Shown one piece after another: positions 3,902-28,272 of a stretch of 42,297 nt of DNA. Each line of letters opens with the position of its first letter. Position 1 is the first letter of the stretch. The notes beneath the pieces were generated by a model. That model was not told where the DNA came from and made no database searches. It was given only the letters and a program-made list of their open reading frames with translations. The position numbers were made by a program, and so were the translations under genes. The DNA is taken from positions 1 through 42,297 of IMG/VR virus record IMGVR_UViG_3300049181_000071; one strand, 5' to 3'. The stretch comes from a virus.

Positions 3902-4072
3902 ATGAAGCCCATCGTCACCCGAATCCTAATGGTCCTGGCCGGCATCATCACCGCCGCTGCCAACGTCGAAACCTGGAATCTCAAGAGCGGGCTGGTGCTC
4001 CTCGGCATGTTCGTCGCGGGCATCGCGGCACTCGACTCGCCCGGCACCGCGGCGAAGCTGGCGGCAAAGTGA
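3902..4072 (+). CDS. Holin-like small membrane protein (56 aa, two TM segments)
   Basis: Short ORF starting at the ATG at 3902; the longer reading from 3782 runs back through the upstream gene. Two hydrophobic segments, residues ~8-20 (ILMVLAGIITAAA) and ~30-44 (GLVLLGMFVAGIAAL), joined by a short polar loop, with a basic N-terminus (MKPIVTR) and a lysine-ended tail. This is class II holin topology. It sits three genes upstream of the endolysin, which supports a holin role. Holins are not identifiable by sequence alone, so this is inference from topology and position. Confidence 0.65.
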   Translation: MKPIVTRILMVLAGIITAAANVETWNLKSGLVLLGMFVAGIAALDSPGTAAKLAAK

Positions 4073-10034: not shown

Positions 10035-10149
10035 CTTCGCTCTCCTCCTGTTCCGCCTCACAAGCCCTGCAAAACCACTCCAGCCCGCCAACGTGGACCC
10101 CGCACTTGCGGCATCGGGGGATGCGCCAGGGGGTGGGGCTACTCGTCAT
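10027..10149 (-). CDS. Hidden 40-aa zinc-ribbon protein
   Basis: Short ORF between the annealing-protein gene and gene 9552-10034, overlapping both. ATG lies in the last codons of the upstream gene and the TAG lies 8 nt inside the next gene. The product reads CRKCGVHVGGLEWFCRAC, a textbook CxxC-x11-CxxC zinc ribbon, followed by an acidic Glu/Asp/Ser tail. The overlap at both ends and the intact metal site make a chance ORF unlikely. Confidence 0.6.
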   Translation of the reverse strand: MTSSPTPWRIPRCRKCGVHVGGLEWFCRACEAEQEESEDE

Positions 10150-11104
10150 CGGAGCCCGGTTCCCGCTCGGGCGCGCCGAGAGCTTCGGTGCCGTCTGGCT
10201 CGTCGGTGAACGTAGCCTCCACGCTGGGTTTCAACCGCTCCTCCAGTTTCTCCAGCTTTCGATTGCAACGCATCCAGGTCTTGCCAAGCTCCTGGCGTTG
10301 ACTCGGGCTGATGTCCCCGCTTTCGGCCTTCTGCTGCATGGTGCGAGTTAGCTCAGACTGGACGGAGCGCGTGCCGAGTAGAGCGCGCAGTGCGTTTGCC
10401 TTCTCCCAGCTGTCGCAGGCGTCCAGTTCGGATTCGATGGTGCTGAATCGGCCACAGAGGGAACGAAACAGGTCCTCATCACCGGCGTCGTCGCCATCAC
10501 CGGGGCCGCGGTGCGGACTGAGCTGCATCGGACGCTCGTTCTCCGTCTGCTGCATCTCCTCGTCGGTGTAGAGCCCGCCCATGTCCTCAGGGAACGCCTT
10601 GCGCATGGCAATCGCTTCGGCGCACTTTGCCAACATCACGCGCGGCATCTCCTTCCAGAACCGCGTAGGGCCGCCTTCCTTCGAGCGCTGCACGTACTCT
10701 GACCAATACGCCGTGCCCACCGCGGGGCGCCGCCAGTCCTTCCTGTAGACCTTCACCCTGGCCCATTCCGGGAAACCGTCAACCATCGGCCCAAACTCGG
10801 CCTCGTCCTGACCGTCGTACTTGCCCGTGCGCTCAGCGATAGCGCGGAGCCCATCGACGCTAACCTGCGCGGACCAGACGTCGCGTTTCAGTTGACCGTT
10901 CCAGCGCTTTACGAAGTGGATCTGGCGAAGAAGCGGGTTAAGTCGCCGTAGCTTGGCAACCTCTAAGAGGACCTGGAACTCCTTCTCGCTTGCGCCGTTC
11001 GCGTAGGTATCGCGAATCATGGCGCGCTGCGCGGACGTGAACTCTAGCTGCTCTTGGTGGACGGCTATGGCGCGGTGCTCCGCTAGCTCAATTGCGTTCG
11101 TCAT
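10139..11104 (-). CDS. bet: RecT/Bet-family single-strand annealing protein (321 aa)
   Basis: Phage recombinase that coats single-stranded DNA and anneals complementary strands. The core, residues ~25-175, shows the Bet/RecT pattern: EFQVLLEVAKLRRLNPLLRQ, then IHFVKRW, then QVSVDGLRAIAERTGKYDGQ, then KVYRKDW, then a KCAEAIAMRKAFP block and MGGLYTDEEM. The C-terminal ~100 residues are acidic and helical. Start taken at the ATG at 11104 because AAGGAAGAGG lies directly upstream and family members begin here; the frame stays open to 11236 or 11284. No exonuclease partner lies beside it. Confidence 0.88.
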   Translation of the reverse strand: MTNAIELAEHRAIAVHQEQLEFTSAQRAMIRDTYANGASEKEFQVLLEVAKLRRLNPLLRQIHFVKRWNGQLKRDVWSAQVSVDGLRAIAERTGKYDGQDEAEFGPMVDGFPEWARVKVYRKDWRRPAVGTAYWSEYVQRSKEGGPTRFWKEMPRVMLAKCAEAIAMRKAFPEDMGGLYTDEEMQQTENERPMQLSPHRGPGDGDDAGDEDLFRSLCGRFSTIESELDACDSWEKANALRALLGTRSVQSELTRTMQQKAESGDISPSQRQELGKTWMRCNRKLEKLEERLKPSVEATFTDEPDGTEALGAPEREPGSDDE

Positions 11105-11219
11105 CCTCTTCCTTTTCAGTCGCTTCGGCGGCACCGGGGCCGCGCCAATGTTCTTCTGCTGCTGCTGCCGTTTCGCCTCTCGCACATAGGCGACCGACGC
11201 CGCGAGTGCCGGCGCCAGG

Positions 11220-11381
11220 TCACGCCCTGTCGTCATCGCCCGCCTCGAACAGACCCAGCAGTCGCTCATCGTCCAAGCAGTCATCGCAGTACGCCGTCCC
11301 GTGCTCGGCCATGTTGCGGCGGCAAGTGACGCACGGCAGCTCGATGGCTTCAGCGTCGACGTCGGCGGCGACAGCGTCCAT
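11220..11381 (-). CDS. Small zinc-finger protein (53 aa)
   Basis: ATG at 11381 overlaps the upstream TAA (TAATG). The middle reads CVTCRRNMAEHGTAYCDDC, a CxxC-x11-CxxC zinc ribbon, flanked by an acidic N-terminus and an acidic C-terminus (LFEAGDDDRA). The ~115 bp between its stop and the annealing-protein start are open in the bet frame and could be an N-terminal extension of Bet from ATG 11236. Function unknown. Confidence 0.6.
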   Translation of the reverse strand: MDAVAADVDAEAIELPCVTCRRNMAEHGTAYCDDCLDDERLLGLFEAGDDDRA

Positions 11382-11542
11382 TACTCCGCGCCTCGCTCAT
11401 CCCGAATCTCCTCCGGGTTGTCGCGGAACCAAGCGCCGTGCTGCTCCTCGTGGATGAACCCGGCCAGGTCGGCGTCGGAGTCCGTCTCGAAGATGAGGAG
11501 CTTCAGCTCACGGCAGCGGGCTTCGAGCTCGGGGCGGGTCAC
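11381..11542 (-). CDS. Small early protein (53 aa)
   Basis: GTG start at 11542 overlaps the upstream stop (GTGA); stop overlaps the next ATG. Product is acidic and helical (RCRELKLLIFETDSDADL and FRDNPEEIRDERG). An ORF start further upstream was rejected because it is inside the preceding gene. Not recognised. Confidence 0.5.
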   Translation of the reverse strand: MTRPELEARCRELKLLIFETDSDADLAGFIHEEQHGAWFRDNPEEIRDERGAE

Positions 11543-11627
11543 GGCCGCTCCCCCAGCGTCGCGCGCACGTCCGCGGCCAGGGTCGGGAACACGGCCTCGG
11601 CTGCGGCGAGGCGGGCGGCGTCGGGCG
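11538..11627 (+). repeat. Copy A of a ~90-bp direct repeat (30 bp identical core)
   Basis: Aligns without gaps to 12542-12631 at about 84% identity by eye, with 30 identical bases at 11594-11623. It covers the 3' end of the gene ending at 11539 and the start of its downstream neighbour, and it is the DNA trace of a gene duplication. Confidence 0.8.
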
Positions 11628-11838
11628 TGTCGCCTTGGCATTCGCTGTAGCTATGAACAAACACGGACCATCCGCCGTCAGCGGGGTTGGGTATCGCGCA
11701 AGGCGGCTTGGCATATATCGGGCTTACCGCCACCCATGCATCCAACACCCGCACGGCCCAGTCGCGGCGCTCGAGCTCCCGAAGCTGGGACCAGGCTTCC
11801 GGCTTGTCGCGCCCAAGGGCACTGGAGAGCTGGCTCAC
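11539..11838 (-). CDS. Duplicated early protein, copy A (99 aa)
   Basis: Paralogue of gene 12543-12875. Both share W-VRVLDAW in the first half and end in a DAARLAAAEAVF segment followed by TLGERP. The DNA is also alike over the last ~90 bp. The pattern (aromatic strand, then PDAARLAAAEA) occurs in small phage proteins of unknown function, often several per genome. Overlaps its neighbours by 4 nt on both sides. This copy lacks the Cys cluster found at the N-terminus of copy B. Confidence 0.6.
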   Translation of the reverse strand: MSQLSSALGRDKPEAWSQLRELERRDWAVRVLDAWVAVSPIYAKPPCAIPNPADGGWSVFVHSYSECQGDTPDAARLAAAEAVFPTLAADVRATLGERP

Positions 11839-12092
11839 GCCGCCCTCCCGCCCGCCGCAATCGCCGTTTGCAGCGCCTGTGCAACCGCGTCAGCCAGACT
11901 CAACCGCGACGAGCCATCCCAGCTCGCCGTGATGACGGGCCCGCGCGACTCCTCCAGCACCGCGGACCAGACGCCCTGGAACGACGCCATCCGCACGCGC
12001 CTGTCGCCGCCGGACGTCCACCTTGATAGCTCTGCCCACACGTGGCCTTCGTCGATGCGGACGATTCCAGCGGGGAACATCAGTTCGGTCAT
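11835..12092 (-). CDS. Hypothetical early protein (85 aa)
   Basis: ATG at 12092 overlaps the upstream stop. Predicted mixed beta/alpha: N-terminal strands (ELMFPAGIVRI, then HVWAELSRW) and a C-terminal amphipathic helix ADAVAQALQTAIAAGG. No Cys cluster. Unknown function; member of the overlapping leftward operon. Confidence 0.5.
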   Translation of the reverse strand: MTELMFPAGIVRIDEGHVWAELSRWTSGGDRRVRMASFQGVWSAVLEESRGPVITASWDGSSRLSLADAVAQALQTAIAAGGRAA

Positions 12093-12319
12093 GACTCGTC
12101 CTCCTCCTCGTCATCGAACCAGCCGGGGTTGGCCTTCTTTAGCGCCTTGTCGAACGCCGGGTCCGCGCCCATGCACTCGCCCAACGTGTCGCAGTCGTTG
12201 CTTTCCAGCTCATGAATGAGCGCTTTGTAGAAAGCCGGTTTGCTTGCCTCGGATACGTGCTTCTTTGCGACGCGAATCAACGCCATCGCGATACTGCTGC
12301 CGCCTGACCATCCCATCAC
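12089..12319 (-). CDS. Hypothetical early protein (76 aa)
   Basis: ATG at 12319 overlaps the upstream stop (ATGA). Helical N-terminal half (MALIRVAKKHVSEASKPAFY) and a very acidic C-terminus (FDDEEEDES). Such acidic small proteins are often inhibitors or DNA mimics in phages, but no specific family is visible here. Confidence 0.5.
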   Translation of the reverse strand: MMGWSGGSSIAMALIRVAKKHVSEASKPAFYKALIHELESNDCDTLGECMGADPAFDKALKKANPGWFDDEEEDES

Positions 12320-12546
12320 GCCGCCCCTTTCAGCCCAGTCCGGGCCAGTTGCGCCAAGTCTTCCTCGAACATGTCGATCGCCGCGGACTCGACGTCGTCC
12401 AGGTCATCCGCGTTGCAGTCGCCGCTGATGAGCTCGCACCGGTACTCCGGCGGCAGGTCTGTCGCGGGCAGGCGCGTTACCTCGTAGGTGAACGAGCAGA
12501 GGCGACCGGAGAGGAGCATGTCGAACATGACGCGGCGGGTGGTCAC
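12316..12546 (-). CDS. Acidic hypothetical early protein (76 aa)
   Basis: GTG start at 12546 overlaps the upstream stop (GTGA). N-terminal beta-rich part (MFDMLLSGRLCSFTYEV) and an acidic middle (SGDCNADDLDDVESAAIDMF). Not recognised. Confidence 0.5.
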   Translation of the reverse strand: MTTRRVMFDMLLSGRLCSFTYEVTRLPATDLPPEYRCELISGDCNADDLDDVESAAIDMFEEDLAQLARTGLKGAA

Positions 12547-14228: not shown

Positions 14229-14399
14229 ATGAACCCCAAACGCATTGCCGCCCTCCTGCGCGAGCTCGCCGACGCCTTCGAGGCTGAGGAGCCGAAGCGC
14301 AAACGCGCGAAGCGTGTCGCGGCGCCCGAGGTGGAGCCGACTCAGGAAGCCAAGGATGCGGCGCGGCGTGCGCTGCGGAAAGCAGGGTTCGCGGCGTGA
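14229..14399 (+). CDS. Small conserved phage regulator-like protein (56 aa)
   Basis: ATG 10 nt after the Cro-like stop; its TGA overlaps the next GTG (GTGA). N-terminus reads NPKRIAALLRELADAFE, a short helix seen at the start of many phage proteins just downstream of regulators. The middle is basic (KRKRAKRVAAPEVEP) and a C-terminal helix DAARRALRKAG follows. This bipartite pattern suggests a small DNA-binding or recombination-directionality protein next to integrase, but that is inference. Confidence 0.6.
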   Translation: MNPKRIAALLRELADAFEAEEPKRKRAKRVAAPEVEPTQEAKDAARRALRKAGFAA

Positions 14400-14602
14400 G
14401 TGCACTTCGAGGAGCCGCGGTTAAGCAGGTGATGGTCCTCGAGATCTGCGAGGGCGAAGGCACTCAGGGTGACCCGTGCCGAATCGTGACCTACGTCCTG
14501 GAGCTGGACGGCACAGCGATCGCCAGCTCCGATCCAATCATGGAGTCGCGCCACGCAGCGACTCGTGAGAGAGCGGCCCGAGAGGCGATGGCGGACGAAT
14601 GA
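14396..14602 (+). CDS. Small early protein preceding integrase (68 aa)
   Basis: GTG overlaps the previous stop and its TGA overlaps the integrase ATG (ATGA). Beta-rich N-terminal half (VMVLEICEGEG, CRIVTYVLELDG) and an Arg/Ala helix at the end. Too short for a typical Xis HTH. Possibly an integrase-associated factor by position only. Confidence 0.5.
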   Translation: MSALRGAAVKQVMVLEICEGEGTQGDPCRIVTYVLELDGTAIASSDPIMESRHAATRERAAREAMADE

Positions 14603-15909
14603 AGCGCCGCCCCGGCCATGCCAGCGTCGAGGAGCACCCGAAAGGCTCCGGGCTCTACCGCGTCCGCATCAGGGCAGGGAAGAGCTTCAAGACGCTCGGC
14701 TCCAAGCTGACTAAAGGCGCCGCGCTCGAGCTGGCCAACGCTCAGGCTGCGCTTCGCCATGACGTCGACATGCGGCAGGGGATGACGCTCGGCCAGTTCG
14801 GCGTCGCGTACATGGACCGGCGCGAGCTGCTTGGGGTCCGAGCCATCCGCACGGACCGCGCCTCCTGGAACAAGCACATGGCGCGCGACCCGATCGCCGG
14901 TCTGCCGGTGTCAACCATCTCTCGGTTGGACATCGTCGATTGGCTCGACCGGCGCCGGGCCTCGGCCTACCGCACGCGCATTCGGCTGCTCAACCTGTTC
15001 CGCGCCGCCCTTCAGGATGCGATGGAGCGGGGTCTAATCGGCATGAACCCAGCCCGCGAGGTACGCGTTCACCGAGCGGGCGGAGCGAGCGGCAGGGACG
15101 ACCTGGAGGGCATCCTGACTCCGGACGAGCAGAAGCGCCTGATTGCTGCCATCCCGCTCGAGCGCGACAAGGCCATGGTCGTTTTCGCCATGTGCACCGG
15201 GCTCCGGCTTTCGGAGCAGTGGCGCCTGGAATGGTCGGACGTGCGCGTCGACCGGATCGTTGTCCGTCGCTCAGCTGGGGGCCTGGCCCCGAAGTCTGGC
15301 AAGCCGCGCGAAGTCTTCCTGCTCCCCGCCGCCAAAGCCGCCCTGGAGGCGCTCTGGCGCCGCCCTGGGCTCGTCTTCCCGGGGGCCCGCGGGGCACGGC
15401 GCGAGGACGGAAAGCAGCCCCGGCAATGGAAGGGCTGGCTGCTCGCCGCCGGCATCAAGCGCCGGGTGCGCTGGCACGACCTGCGCCACACGTGCGCCAC
15501 CTCTCTGCTGGCTGGCTGGTGGGGCAGCAAATGGAGCCTCGACGAGGTCGCCAAGATGCTGGGCCACAGCTCGATCGCGGTGACCGAGCGGTACGCCAGG
15601 AAGCTGAACGAAACGCTCGAACAGGCGGTGCTGCGCACGCCGATGTTGCTGTTCCCCTATGGGAACACGGAGGGTCCTATGGTGCCGAAACTACAGGCCA
15701 AGACAGGCAAATTCGTAAAGCACAGGTCGTCGGTTCAAATCCGACAGTCGGCTCCAGCACTTCCGGAGCGCGTTCGGGAACACTCGGGGAACAGCGGCGC
15801 TGAGCCCGCCCTCGGCCACAAGCTCGGCTGGTTCGGACCCAACGACCCGCCCGGCACCGAGTCGGACTTCAGCTTTCTGCAGGCTGACCTGGGCGGGGTG
15901 GCCCCGTGA
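14599..15909 (+). CDS. int: Tyrosine-recombinase phage integrase, with attP inside its 3' end (436 aa)
   Basis: Catalyses site-specific integration and, with a directionality factor, excision. The N-terminal arm-binding part and SAM-like core-binding domain cover residues ~1-165. The catalytic domain follows with Arg203 (TGLRLSEQW), His293 and Arg296 (HDLRH), His323 (LGHSS) and nucleophile Tyr332 (VTERYA), all in order. About 40 residues after the tyrosine, residues 372-386 are encoded by the tRNA-like attP core, and the last 50 residues lie beyond it. Integration would replace those 50 residues with host-encoded sequence, as reported for Mx8 IntP. Transcribed from PR with the early genes. 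Confidence 0.93.
   Translation: MKRRPGHASVEEHPKGSGLYRVRIRAGKSFKTLGSKLTKGAALELANAQAALRHDVDMRQGMTLGQFGVAYMDRRELLGVRAIRTDRASWNKHMARDPIAGLPVSTISRLDIVDWLDRRRASAYRTRIRLLNLFRAALQDAMERGLIGMNPAREVRVHRAGGASGRDDLEGILTPDEQKRLIAAIPLERDKAMVVFAMCTGLRLSEQWRLEWSDVRVDRIVVRRSAGGLAPKSGKPREVFLLPAAKAALEALWRRPGLVFPGARGARREDGKQPRQWKGWLLAAGIKRRVRWHDLRHTCATSLLAGWWGSKWSLDEVAKMLGHSSIAVTERYARKLNETLEQAVLRTPMLLFPYGNTEGPMVPKLQAKTGKFVKHRSSVQIRQSAPALPERVREHSGNSGAEPALGHKLGWFGPNDPPGTESDFSFLQADLGGVAP
15712..15756 (+). other. attP: attP core: 3' half of a tRNA-Thr(CGU) gene
   Basis: Parses exactly as a tRNA from anticodon loop to CCA: loop TTCGTAA (15712-15718), stem AGCAC, variable AGGTC, T-stem GTCGG (15729-15733), T-loop TTCAAAT, T-stem CCGAC (15741-15745), acceptor AGTCGGC, discriminator T, CCA at 15754-15756. 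The loop gives anticodon CGU and the acceptor implies a GCCGACT start, as in tRNA-Thr. No 5' half is present here, so this is not a gene. Integration would restore the host tRNA. Confidence 0.85.
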
Positions 15910-16085
15910 GCCGGGTCTGGATGTTCTGCCGGCTCGTGTTCTTCGGTGCCCTGCGTGAGGAACGCGGTCACTCACTGGCGATCTTGTGGGCCGCCGCCGG
16001 CGTGGGCGTGAAAGTGCCCGGCTCGAGCGCCCGGACGGTCCTGCGGCTGCTCGACGTGGGGCGACTGCTCGGGGAGGCGCCATGA
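15906..16085 (+). CDS. Small protein downstream of integrase (59 aa)
   Basis: GTG overlaps the integrase stop (GTGA) and the TGA overlaps the next ATG (ATGA). Hydrophobic stretches CRLVFFGAL and SLAILWAAAGVGV, with a helical C-terminus RTVLRLLDVGRLLG. Could be membrane-associated or a small HTH-like protein. It lies on the far side of attP from most of the early operon, so in a prophage it sits at the opposite end from the int 5' part. Confidence 0.45.
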   Translation: MSRVWMFCRLVFFGALREERGHSLAILWAAAGVGVKVPGSSARTVLRLLDVGRLLGEAP

Positions 16086-20954: not shown

Positions 20955-21256
20955 GCGAAAAAGAATACCTCGTGACCACCTACGAGCCGCTGCAGGTCTC
21001 GCTGTGCCTTGGCTCAGGGCTGCGTGCCATTTTCCGAAACGACGACGGCAGCAAGCACACGTCGCCGGTCGCTGCCGTGGCAGTCTGTCGGGTGCGCCGC
21101 GATTGGTACCGAAACGGTCGCCGCGTCTCCAGTGACGGCGTCGAGCGTCAGATATGCGGTGTGCTCTCCTATCCGGATGAAGGGTTCAGCATCTGTGAAG
21201 ATGTGAGCAATTTCCTTGGGTACCTGCAGCCGGGTGAGGAGCTCGAAGAAAAGTGA
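20951..21256 (+). CDS. Hypothetical early protein (101 aa)
   Basis: ATG overlaps the previous stop (ATGA). Beta-rich (YLVTTYEPLQVSLCLGSGL, then AVAVCRVRRDWYRNGRRV) and ends in an acidic tail (PGEELEEK). Lies directly upstream of the helicase and overlaps it by 1 nt. Not recognised. Confidence 0.5.
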   Translation: MSEKEYLVTTYEPLQVSLCLGSGLRAIFRNDDGSKHTSPVAAVAVCRVRRDWYRNGRRVSSDGVERQICGVLSYPDEGFSICEDVSNFLGYLQPGEELEEK

Positions 21257-22707
21257 TGGCGGCAGAAGACGAAGGTGGCTGGCTGCCGGAAGATGACGAA
21301 GCGTCCAACGTCCGCTCGCTTCCGGCCGCGTTCAACCACACCGACTTAGGCAACGCGGAGCGTCTGATTGCGCACTACCGTGACCGCGTGCACTACAGCG
21401 GGCAGCGTAAAAAGTGGCTCCTTTGGGACGGCACACGCTGGCGATGGGACGAGACTTTCGCCATCGAACGCATGGCCAAGCGAGCTGTTCGCAAGATTCG
21501 CCAAGAGGCCGCGTCGCTCGACGGGAAAGAGGCCACGCGCGTCTTCCAGTTTGCCCTGCAGTCCGAGTCCGCAAAGGCCATCAAAGCCATGGTTGGACTC
21601 GCTCAGTCCGAGGAAGGCGTTCCTATTCTGGTGTCCGACCTGGACGCGGACCCGTACTTGCTGAATGCCCCCAACGGCACCATCGATCTTCGCACCGGGG
21701 AGATTCGGGACCATCGCCGCACTGACTTGATCACTCGAACCACTGGGGTCAAGTACGATGCAGATGCGCAGTCCGAGCTATGGGACCGCGTGTTACTCGA
21801 AGCGTGCGGCAGCGACTCTGAGCTCGCGTTGTACCTCCAGTACGTCATCGGTTACTCGCTGATCGGTCTCCCGCTCGAGCGCGCGCTGTTCTTCCTTTAT
21901 GGCCCACCTGGGACCGCCAAGAGCACGCTCATCGACGCCTTCCACGCTGCGCTAGGCGACTACGCGCAAGCTGCTGACTTCGACACGTGGCTACTCAAGC
22001 CCCAAGTCGGCGGCAACCGCGGCGACCTCGTGCGACTCGCCGGAGCCCGCCTGGTGACGTCTAGCGAGACGAAGCCCGGGGTGAAGTGGGACGAGAAGCT
22101 ACTCAAGGGCATCACCGGCGGTGACATCCTCACTGCCTGTGCAAAGTACGAGAATGAGGTGTCCTTTAAACCAGCTTGCACCTTGCTTTTCGCCGCAAAC
22201 GACGCGCCTGCGGCACGCGAAGACGATGACGGTTTCTGGGCCAGAATGCGCAGAATTCCGCTAACCCACCAAATACCCATCGAGCGTCAAGACAAAGGTC
22301 TAAAGCGTCAGCTTGCCGAGCCTGAGCATCAGCAGGCAGTTTTAGCTTGGGCTGTCAAGGGCTGTGCGATGTACAGCGCCGCAAAGGGGTTCCCCAAATG
22401 CGCCGCCGTCGAGGAGTCGACGACCGAGTACCGCGCGGAGCTGGACCACTTTTCGACGTTCCTTTCCGACAGGACTGAAATGGGCGAGGGGTACTTCGTG
22501 TCTCGCCGTGACCTCCGCAGGGCCTACGTGGCATGGGCGGAGGAGGTCGGCCGGAAAGTGCTGCTGGACGATAAGGCAATCGTCAAAAAGCTCAGGTCGA
22601 AGCGTTTTGAGGAGCTACCACCGCGACATGGTTACGCAATGTGGGGCGGACTCCAGCTGAAGGCTCTTGGCCAATCGTCCATGCCAGACGACTCAAGGTG
22701 GAGCTAG
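21256..22707 (+). CDS. SF3 / P4-type DNA helicase lacking a primase domain (483 aa)
   Basis: Phage replication helicase of the P4/D5 family. N-terminal D5-N-like part (LLWDGTRWRWDETFAIERM, then YLLNAPNGTIDLRTGEI) leads into the ATPase: Walker A GPPGTAKST at residues 216-224, the B' region with TSSETKPGVKWDEKLLKGI, and sensor FAANDAPAA. C-terminal winged part after residue ~370. Typical P4-family proteins carry an N-terminal primase/polymerase domain; here the first 30 residues are an unstructured acidic stretch and no primase is seen. Third codon positions are A/T-richer than in neighbours. ATG at 21256; GTG 21253 is possible. Confidence 0.88.
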   Translation: MAAEDEGGWLPEDDEASNVRSLPAAFNHTDLGNAERLIAHYRDRVHYSGQRKKWLLWDGTRWRWDETFAIERMAKRAVRKIRQEAASLDGKEATRVFQFALQSESAKAIKAMVGLAQSEEGVPILVSDLDADPYLLNAPNGTIDLRTGEIRDHRRTDLITRTTGVKYDADAQSELWDRVLLEACGSDSELALYLQYVIGYSLIGLPLERALFFLYGPPGTAKSTLIDAFHAALGDYAQAADFDTWLLKPQVGGNRGDLVRLAGARLVTSSETKPGVKWDEKLLKGITGGDILTACAKYENEVSFKPACTLLFAANDAPAAREDDDGFWARMRRIPLTHQIPIERQDKGLKRQLAEPEHQQAVLAWAVKGCAMYSAAKGFPKCAAVEESTTEYRAELDHFSTFLSDRTEMGEGYFVSRRDLRRAYVAWAEEVGRKVLLDDKAIVKKLRSKRFEELPPRHGYAMWGGLQLKALGQSSMPDDSRWS

Positions 22708-26057: not shown

Positions 26058-26314
26058 ACCTCGCCTTGCTTGCGTATGAGATGCGCGCCGCCGGCATCAA
26101 GAGCCTGTCGGTCGAGCTGGATGCTGCGACGGTGTCAGCGTCGGCCACGAACGACTTGGCCACCCTTCCACCTGACGCTCCCGAGCCCGAGCAGAAGGAG
26201 CCGAACGCCTGCATCGAGCCCGGTTGCACGAACGAGCGCGGCGGCATCTTCGGCGGCATCGGCAGTGAGCGGTGCCGGATTCACGCATTGCAGCGAGCAG
26301 GGGTCAGAACATGA
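26054..26314 (+). CDS. Small Cys-containing protein between TerL and portal (86 aa)
   Basis: ATG overlaps the TerL stop and its TGA overlaps the portal ATG (ATGA). N-terminal helix (ALLAYEMRAAGIKSLSVEL) and a C-terminal Cys/His set CIEPGCTNERGGIFGGIG then RCRIH, a likely zinc knuckle. Location inside the packaging genes suggests a role in terminase or portal assembly, but nothing more can be said. Confidence 0.55.
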   Translation: MNLALLAYEMRAAGIKSLSVELDAATVSASATNDLATLPPDAPEPEQKEPNACIEPGCTNERGGIFGGIGSERCRIHALQRAGVRT

Positions 26315-28272
26315 GCGCACCCGTCCTTTGGTACCAAGAGAGCGACAAGGAAGCGGCAGCGGCCGCCATGGTCAACGCCGCCCGCGCGCTGCGAAACGAC
26401 CAGGGCGACCAGCGCCGCCGCGATGCCGACGACGCCATGACGCTGTGGTCCGGCACCATCAACCACGGCTTCACCGGCGCGAACGCCATGAGCATGCTCG
26501 GGCTCATCGAGGACACCGCCGGGTACAACCTGGTCCAGTCCGTCACTGACACGAAGGTGAACACGACGCTGCGTAACGAGATTCGCCCCTTGCTCATGTG
26601 CCAAGGCGGAGACTCCGAGCTGCGCGAGAAGGCCGAGGCGATGCAAGATGCCGCGGACGGGCAGAGCTACGAGCTGGGCCTAGACGACGAGCTCGAGGAG
26701 GTCGCCTGCTGGAACGGCTACATCTTCGGCAACGGCGGCGTGGAGTTCTGGGCCGACACGGCCAGCTCGCGCATCATGGCCAGCCCTGTTTTCCACTGGC
26801 AGTACTTCGTGAGCCGCCAGGAGTCGCGCTACACGACGCGCCCGCAACAGATGTTTGCCCGCCACGTGATGCCGCGTGACGTGCTGCTTTCGTTCCTTGC
26901 CGACCAGCCCGCCGAAGTGCGCAAGGCCGTCGAGGAAGCCCCGAGCGCCGGAGCCGACGATACGCGCGACTTTTCGAGCGACGAGCCGGGCAAGATCGTG
27001 GACCTCGTCGTCGTCTGGAAGGCCTGGCACCTTCCCAGCAAACGGGTCGACCTGAGCAGCCCCGAGGCGTTCGGCAGGAACAAGGCCGGCAACACCGTGA
27101 AGCCAAACCACGACGGCTTGCACATGGTGTGCGTCGAGTCCAAGACGCCGTTCGCGCTCATCACGCGCCCATGGCCGCACTCCTATTTCCCGGTGGCCTG
27201 GTTCAAGCCGAATCGCAACCCTGGCAGCTTCTGGGGACGCGGCGAGCCGGAGATTCTGGCGCGGAGCCAGGTCGAGATGAACCAGTGGTCCGAGCGCGAG
27301 TACGTGGTGCTCGACCGGTACGCGCACCCGAGCATCATCCTGCCCAAGGGCGCCAAGCTGAACCCGGCGCAGCTCAACAACGGAAATTTCAACATCTACC
27401 AGATCGAAGGCGGCATGGCGCAGGCCCCGCAGATCTGGAACCCCACGAGCGTCCCTGCCGAGCTCATCGGCCGCCGCGAACGCCTCGCCGCCGAAGCGAA
27501 GGACCAGCGCGGCATGAGCGACATGAGCATGGCCGCTCGCAAGCCGGTGGGCGTCGACCACAAGCCCGGCATGGCCTACCTGGCCAACACCGAAACCATC
27601 CGCCACACCGCCGAGTTCCGCGCGTGGCGCCGCTTCAAGCTCGACTCCTACCGCAATATCATTCGCTGCTTCAAAGAGCTGAGCGAGCACGACCCCAACT
27701 TCGAGGTCGTCTACGAGAAGGATAAGCAGCTCATCACGTCGAAGATGACGACCATCAACATCGACGAGAGCAAGTACCGGCTCAAGGCCAAGCCGACCAA
27801 CCTGTTTTCGCAGGACCCGGCGCAGCAGGCCGACCAGATCGCCGACTTCGTGGATCGCCAGCTGCTCCCGCCGGACGCGCTGTTCGACGCCGTCGAGTCC
27901 CCGGACCTGCAAGCCCTGGCCGACGACCGCAAGGTAATGCGCAAGAACGCCATCAAGCGCGTCAAGCTGGTGGCGAAGGGGCCCTACACCGAGGACCTGA
28001 TGCCGCAGGCCTATCACGATCTCGCGACGATGAAGTCCGAGGCGCTGAAGATGGCCAACAGCATCGAGCTGAACGAGGAAAAGGGCGACAAGCTCGACCG
28101 CGTCACCAAGTTCCTGGCCGATGTGGACGAGCTCTTGGGCATCGCCGAGAAGCCCGCCGCGGACGCCGCCGCCGCAGAACAGGCCGCCATGGCGCAAGCC
28201 GCTGCCGGTGGAGCCGCCGCGCCCGCCGTAACCATGCCACCCCAGGCGATGCCGCCCGACCAGCTCCAATGA
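26311..28272 (+). CDS. Portal protein (653 aa)
   Basis: ATG at 26311 overlaps the previous stop; the frame upstream to 26272 belongs to the preceding gene. Length, position between TerL and scaffold, and pattern fit podovirus portals: an N-terminal helix, a YKKxx-type region RAGHP-like FQYFVSRQESRYTTRP, an ALITRPWPHSYFPVAWFKP block followed by FWGRGEPEILARSQVEMNQW (typical of portal families), and a C-terminal helical barrel rich in Ala/Lys ending in Ala/Gln-rich low complexity. The long antisense ORF is a shadow. Confidence 0.8.
   Translation: MSAPVLWYQESDKEAAAAAMVNAARALRNDQGDQRRRDADDAMTLWSGTINHGFTGANAMSMLGLIEDTAGYNLVQSVTDTKVNTTLRNEIRPLLMCQGGDSELREKAEAMQDAADGQSYELGLDDELEEVACWNGYIFGNGGVEFWADTASSRIMASPVFHWQYFVSRQESRYTTRPQQMFARHVMPRDVLLSFLADQPAEVRKAVEEAPSAGADDTRDFSSDEPGKIVDLVVVWKAWHLPSKRVDLSSPEAFGRNKAGNTVKPNHDGLHMVCVESKTPFALITRPWPHSYFPVAWFKPNRNPGSFWGRGEPEILARSQVEMNQWSEREYVVLDRYAHPSIILPKGAKLNPAQLNNGNFNIYQIEGGMAQAPQIWNPTSVPAELIGRRERLAAEAKDQRGMSDMSMAARKPVGVDHKPGMAYLANTETIRHTAEFRAWRRFKLDSYRNIIRCFKELSEHDPNFEVVYEKDKQLITSKMTTINIDESKYRLKAKPTNLFSQDPAQQADQIADFVDRQLLPPDALFDAVESPDLQALADDRKVMRKNAIKRVKLVAKGPYTEDLMPQAYHDLATMKSEALKMANSIELNEEKGDKLDRVTKFLADVDELLGIAEKPAADAAAAEQAAMAQAAAGGAAAPAVTMPPQAMPPDQLQ

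Follow-up and report, generated by a model that had tools for sequence, protein, structure and literature searches.

A probable tRNA-Thr(CGU) attachment site in sense orientation within the integrase gene of a virus likely to infect Polyangia

Attachment sites within an integrase gene are known from very few elements, according to a 2016 paper (PMC4701971). In phage Mx8, attP lies within int, and integration swaps the 112 C-terminal residues of the integrase for 13, yielding a lysogen-form enzyme of lower activity or changed specificity (PMC6070905, PMC4701971). Streptococcal ICEs in rumA also carry att in the integrase gene, and the C-terminus differs between the excised and integrated states (PMC4701971). 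The archaeal SSV-type suicidal integrases, a class that is exclusively archaeal according to a review, likewise have the recombination site within the integrase gene, which is split and inactivated (PMC8371274). In Gordonia phage Obliviate, an example of integration-dependent immunity that uses a tRNA-Thr site, attP lies within a phage gene and integration alters the C-terminus of the encoded protein (PMC4929511).

We analyzed a viral DNA of 42,297 nt, the whole of IMG/VR record IMGVR_UViG_3300049181_000071 (positions 1 to 42,297), referred to below as the window. Our findings suggested, with a probability of roughly 0.87, that it carries attP and belongs to a temperate phage of myxobacteria, that this site targets the 3' half of tRNA-Thr(CGU) and lies in the sense direction within int, and that the integrase (Int) exists with two tails. 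We classed the locus as a variant of the Mx8-type attP-in-int arrangement, of which the sense orientation is the new element. As in Mx8 (AF396866; L099), a tRNA 3' fragment serves as attP inside int, after the catalytic domain, and is followed by what appears to be a coding int tail; the tail of Mx8 is replaced on integration, and the same replacement, demonstrated in five relatives, would apply to the window. A sequence-only reading of this DNA had equated it with Mx8, and the likeness held for position and coding tail but not for orientation: the Mx8 fragment is antisense to int and gives a lysogen tail of 13 residues, whereas the half in the window is sense and its lysogen tail would depend on the host. 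No tblastn similarity linked the Ints and genomes of the two at E 1e-4, and tblastn of the window Int in the phage collection at 1e-5 gave no match.

The window differs from the other described systems in further respects. The ICEs in rumA use a serine integrase and a protein-gene target (PMC4701971), unlike the window. Integration-dependent immunity was set aside, as the gene altered in such phages is the repressor, whereas attP of the window lies within the integrase gene. An archaeal suicidal-type integrase did not fit either: the core lies past Tyr332, and the catalytic domain stays whole while only the tail changes. The features of the locus are listed in Table 1.

Table 1. Coordinates of the integrase gene, its attachment site, and neighboring features in the window
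Feature	Position	Strand	Remark
RecT	10139-11284		upstream of attP core
int, tyrosine integrase, 436 aa in virus form	14599-15909	+	Pfam Phage_integrase
Linker, codons 337-371, catalytic domain to attP core	15607-15711	+	AlphaFold2 model
Candidate arm-type site GGGAACA, left arm	15650-15656	-	motif cluster
Candidate arm-type site GGGAACA, left arm	15661-15667	+	11 bp from 15650-15656 site
attP core, 3' half of tRNA-Thr(CGU)	15712-15756	+	sense to int, residues 372-386
Virus-form tail, codons 387-436	15757-15906	+	expected to be severed from int upon integration
Candidate arm-type site GGGAACA, right arm	15776-15782	+	motif cluster
Candidate arm-type site GGGAACA, right arm	15787-15793	+	11 bp from 15776-15782 site
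Small ORF, 59 aa, after int	15906-16085	+	GTG start overlaps int stop
Primase	21253-22707		downstream of attP core
Head-tail connector	26272-28272		downstream of attP core

The 45 bases of the core (TTCGTAAAGCACAGGTCGTCGGTTCAAATCCGACAGTCGGCTCCA) could be read directly as a complete 3' half of tRNA-Thr(CGU), as had been proposed. They comprise, at canonical spacing throughout, the anticodon loop with anticodon CGU (TTCGTAA), the 3' anticodon stem (AGCAC), the variable loop (AGGTC), the T-arm (GTCGG-TTCAAAT-CCGAC), the 3' acceptor strand (AGTCGGC), the discriminator (T), and CCA. They are in frame within the int ORF and encode FVKHRSSVQIRQSAP at the residues predicted by the earlier reading. The resemblance to a tRNA is not due to chance, since genomes contain tRNA-Thr(CGU) genes whose anticodon stem is complementary (GTGCT...AGCAC). 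The best genomic tRNA-Thr(CGU) agreed with the core at 43/45 bases (L023, Planctomycetota), and the Polyangia genes agreed at 39/45. The anticodon arm GTGCT-NTCGTAA-AGCAC occurred mostly in Planctomycetota, with L023 among those loci, and in a few Polyangia and Micromonosporaceae; it was rare outside those groups in a set of 84,980 species.

A search of the window for a complete tRNA found none, in keeping with an attP, and phage genes flank the tRNA half on either side; the DNA thus represents the virus before integration, and the half is attP, not attL or attR. The gene around it was confirmed as an integrase gene by the Pfam Phage_integrase domain (PF00589) on Int residues 173-336 (E 1.4e-23). 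R203, K232, H293, R296, H323, and Y332 were invariant across a 14-integrase alignment, and this full R-K-H-R-H-Y set inside the domain marks the protein as a phage tyrosine integrase.

The host tRNA-Thr search recommended with the sequence-only reading returned the near match given above but no exact copy and no prophage. The exact 45-mer had no match in the viral or the genome collection, and a 34-mer search of 379 Myxococcota genomes gave a best match with 2 mismatches; neither a prophage of the window virus nor an exactly matching host tRNA was found across these collections and genomes. Rfam returned only a chance hit on the attP region. The missing host or prophage match to demonstrate use of the site would fit a relic, with the phage integrating elsewhere. 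We consider this highly improbable, as the 45-nt half is intact, its T-stem pairs, it sits at the usual attP position of the clade with candidate arm sites around it, and the resolved relatives integrate exactly at the corresponding position.

The closest Int relative in a Myxococcota genome reached 46% (G129), and relatives on IMG/VR contigs reached 58% (L135), 57% (L137), 51% (L136), and 42% (L138). These viral-contig relatives were recovered with an alignment as the query and not with the Int sequence alone; protein searches of viral contigs with the single Int sequence and with the large-terminase candidate gave no match, nor did a nucleotide search against phages. The large-terminase candidate had relatives in 22/318 Polyangia genomes, at best 41%. 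Judged from these sequences, the host is likely a member of Polyangia (Myxococcota), and the virus probably infects soil myxobacteria. Planctomycetota were judged unlikely as hosts, with a relative of the terminase candidate in 0/294 of their genomes and of Int in 0/274 at E 1e-20.

Related integrases were drawn from a sample of the phylum Myxococcota, from the class Polyangia, and from IMG/VR, and their C-terminal regions were read; 55 distinct integrases, with the window included and duplicates removed, were scored. A tRNA 3' half lay within the int ORF in 44/55, antisense in 38 and sense in 6; it was antisense and just past or across the int stop in another 5, and none was detected in the remaining 6. 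The targets included tRNA-Thr(CGU), several tRNA-Arg, tRNA-Lys, tRNA-Gly, and others. With so many halves inside the ORF and such varied targets, attP-in-int is therefore normal for the clade, independent of the tRNA. The window is not an isolated second case after Mx8: this is the usual arrangement in a broad Polyangia integrase clade, in both orientations. The T-arm usually starts 34-57 codons past the catalytic Tyr in the related integrases, and the half in the window is at the same position. The closest Int relatives (L135, L136, L137, L138, and L070; 42-58% identity) all carry the half in the C-terminal part and antisense to int, and in L135-L138 it is that of tRNA-Thr(CGU), as in the window.

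The earlier claim that integration rewrites the Int C-terminus was substantiated in five integrated relatives, and it would extend to the window virus by analogy. Three of these are antisense (G370, G026, and G356) and two are sense (G549 and G585); both junctions were on a single contig in 4/5, and G585 was spread over two contigs. In 5/5, the duplicated block began at the anticodon arm, and the virus-form and lysogen-form Ints diverged after the block. Both junctions delimited antisense elements of 15.8 kb (G370), 5.3 kb (G026), and 42.7 kb (G356), with the duplicated block running from the anticodon stem to the tRNA 3' end or beyond. Counted as open frames from the preceding stop, as were all Int lengths in these relatives, the lysogen Int stopped inside the tRNA 5' half at 469, 423, and 432 aa, respectively, and the virus form read over the rejoined flanks was 553, 465, and 524 aa. 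For two further elements, G354 and G080, no far end was detected over a span of 60 kb.

In the two sense elements (G549:C338 and G585:C64), a sense tRNA-Arg half lies inside int, a complete tRNA stands at the far end, and the Int tail is swapped. In G549, the complete tRNA-Arg(CCG) is at about 3937-4011, int at 11294-12442, and the tRNA half at 12517; the G585 element was consistent across its two contigs. They share the sense half with the window but differ in their tRNA-Arg targets and in their longer virus-form tails, which resemble each other. The virus-form Ints were 563 (G549) and 534 aa (G585), with tails of coding-like composition, and the lysogen frames were 669 and 441 aa, with tails of non-coding composition in the Int frame (GC by codon position.66/.86/.57 and.59/.77/.68). 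Such host-encoded tails of variable length could indicate that the lysogen Int is effectively dead and that integration locks the phage in, as with the archaeal suicidal integrases. This appears improbable, as the catalytic domain through Tyr332 precedes the core and is left untouched, and the lysogen Int of Mx8 is active though modified (PMC6070905, PMC4701971).

By the reading preferred here, strand exchange in the anticodon loop would link the 5' half from the host to the 3' half from the phage, thereby restoring the tRNA. At the other junction, int would retain residues 1-371 plus the 15 tRNA-encoded residues, the latter now from the host copy, and residues 387-436 would be replaced by sequence encoded by the host after the tRNA gene. 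Virus and lysogen would thus make two integrases with a common catalytic domain and different tails, and by comparison with the relatives the window virus would integrate in this manner. In the AlphaFold2 model of Int, order extended as far as roughly residue 346, and residues 347-436 had pLDDT below 50, a disorder prediction built on an eight-sequence alignment only. Since the catalytic domain stops at around residue 346 and the remainder is predicted to be disordered, both forms should keep the complete enzyme. By analogy with Mx8 only, the lysogen form may be weaker or altered, which would help to favor integration over excision, and the difference between the tails probably tunes one against the other.

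The orientation of the tRNA half, sense to int in the window, is antisense in Mx8 and in nearly all relatives. A sense half means that host sequence beyond the tRNA supplies the lysogen Int tail, whereas the antisense lysogen Int usually terminates at a stop inside the tRNA. In the Int tree, the window was nested in a well-supported group (supports 97/89, 98/94, and 98/86) in which its nearest neighbors, L135, L137, L136, and L138, all carry antisense tRNA-Thr(CGU) halves. To account for the six sense cases, the tree required six changes, of which four or more were forced by well-supported branches; the flip therefore happened repeatedly, and on this tree the sense orientation arose at least four times. 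No inverted remnant was seen next to the core in the window, where the CCA end of the tRNA and a GCACTT flank moved along with the core.

The two tails may not matter to the enzyme. The attP could be real and its overlap with int a harmless by-product that leaves Int activity unchanged, the core simply following close behind the catalytic domain while GC-rich DNA keeps the frame open. In line with this, the spacing between the catalytic Tyr and the tRNA half is similar across nearly all relatives, whatever their tail, and five int ORFs (L079, L080, L143, L239, and L091) end before or at the tRNA. Tails past the core are mostly dissimilar between subgroups, and a single conserved domain common to all virus-form tails was not supported, as only the L135/L137 and G549/G585 pairs beat shuffled decoys. 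For the window tail, no homologue could be detected and the model from only eight sequences predicts disorder, so this tail may itself have little function.

Several observations argue against a mere by-product. The codon-position GC of the 50-codon window tail (.76/.54/.84) resembled that of the Int core (.70/.51/.87), while the same scheme after the int stop gave.52/.88/.72; by composition, the 50 codons past the core thus look coding, as do 15 pooled virus-form tails (.78/.56/.75). Tails were conserved between L135 and L137 (E 1.4e-12) and between G549 and G585 (E 2.5e-5, against 0.0035 for the best shuffled decoy). For L135/L137, pN/pS was 0.44 in the tails vs 0.30 in the core, in one pair with synonymous sites near saturation. 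The int stop and the next ORF start overlap as GTGA (15906-15909), which couples int to the next gene and suggests that the virus-form terminus is a genuine gene end, and the lysogen form of Mx8 is reported to be less active (PMC4701971). Because the tails are diverse and the window tail lacks detectable relatives, the by-product explanation was kept as a rival, one that we regard as rather doubtful but still serious.

A broader proposal can be put forward tentatively, at somewhat below even odds: a large myxobacterial clade would use integration as a protein switch in which a tail under selection, encoded past attP, is confined to the virus form, the attP cassette flips repeatedly, and the lysogen tail of sense elements is written by the host. 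With so many virus-form and lysogen-form Ints occurring as natural pairs, the idea that tail loss sets the direction of recombination becomes testable beyond Mx8. For genome annotation, int ORFs that end in or cross tRNA genes should be accepted as real, and prophage integrase tails can be host sequence.

Four GGGAACA motifs surround the core, two on each side with 11-bp spacing within each pair, and are candidate arm-type integrase sites; the cluster was only moderately unusual, as an equally good arrangement occurred at 0.66% of other window positions, the twelve listed examples all coming from one repeat. The sequence GCACTT (15757-15762) comes immediately after the tRNA 3' end in the window and also in L135, L137, L254, and L090, a set that includes more than one tRNA; in L135 it belongs to a perfect inverted repeat (GCGTAAGTGC/GCACTTACGC) flanking the core. 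In many antisense relatives (L070, L081, L082, L085, L097, and others), a short GTTTCG-like motif recurs at the attachment site, beside the tRNA 3' end, and may serve that subgroup as an arm-type site.

Two small ORFs (14230-14400 and 14399-14602) lie immediately 5' of int in the window, the second overlapping the int start by ATGA. By position, they are candidate directionality factors, like Uoi, whose gene sits upstream of Mx8 int.

Genome G254 held three copies of the tRNA-Thr(CGU) 3' half and integrases of both orientations (L075 on C11, L133 on C197), with the tRNA of L133 at about 1690-1762 and the half at 14737; these elements look like a tandem array at one tRNA gene. Because the half occurs three times in G254 and the locus has this appearance, L075 (G254:C11) was set aside as a clean sense lysogen. 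One int ORF of this genome, an open frame of 889 aa, continues in frame into a Transposase_31/DUF4351 gene. The int ORF of L088 (G337:C71), which contains a tRNA-Arg(CCU) half in the sense direction, also reads on in frame, here into the gene of a DUF3426 protein, and looks like a fusion of integrase and host frames. In antisense lysogens such as L081, L082, and L097, the int stop often came from the conserved tRNA D-arm, where TCAG read antisense gives TGA, and the end of the lysogen Int is therefore predictable from the tRNA.
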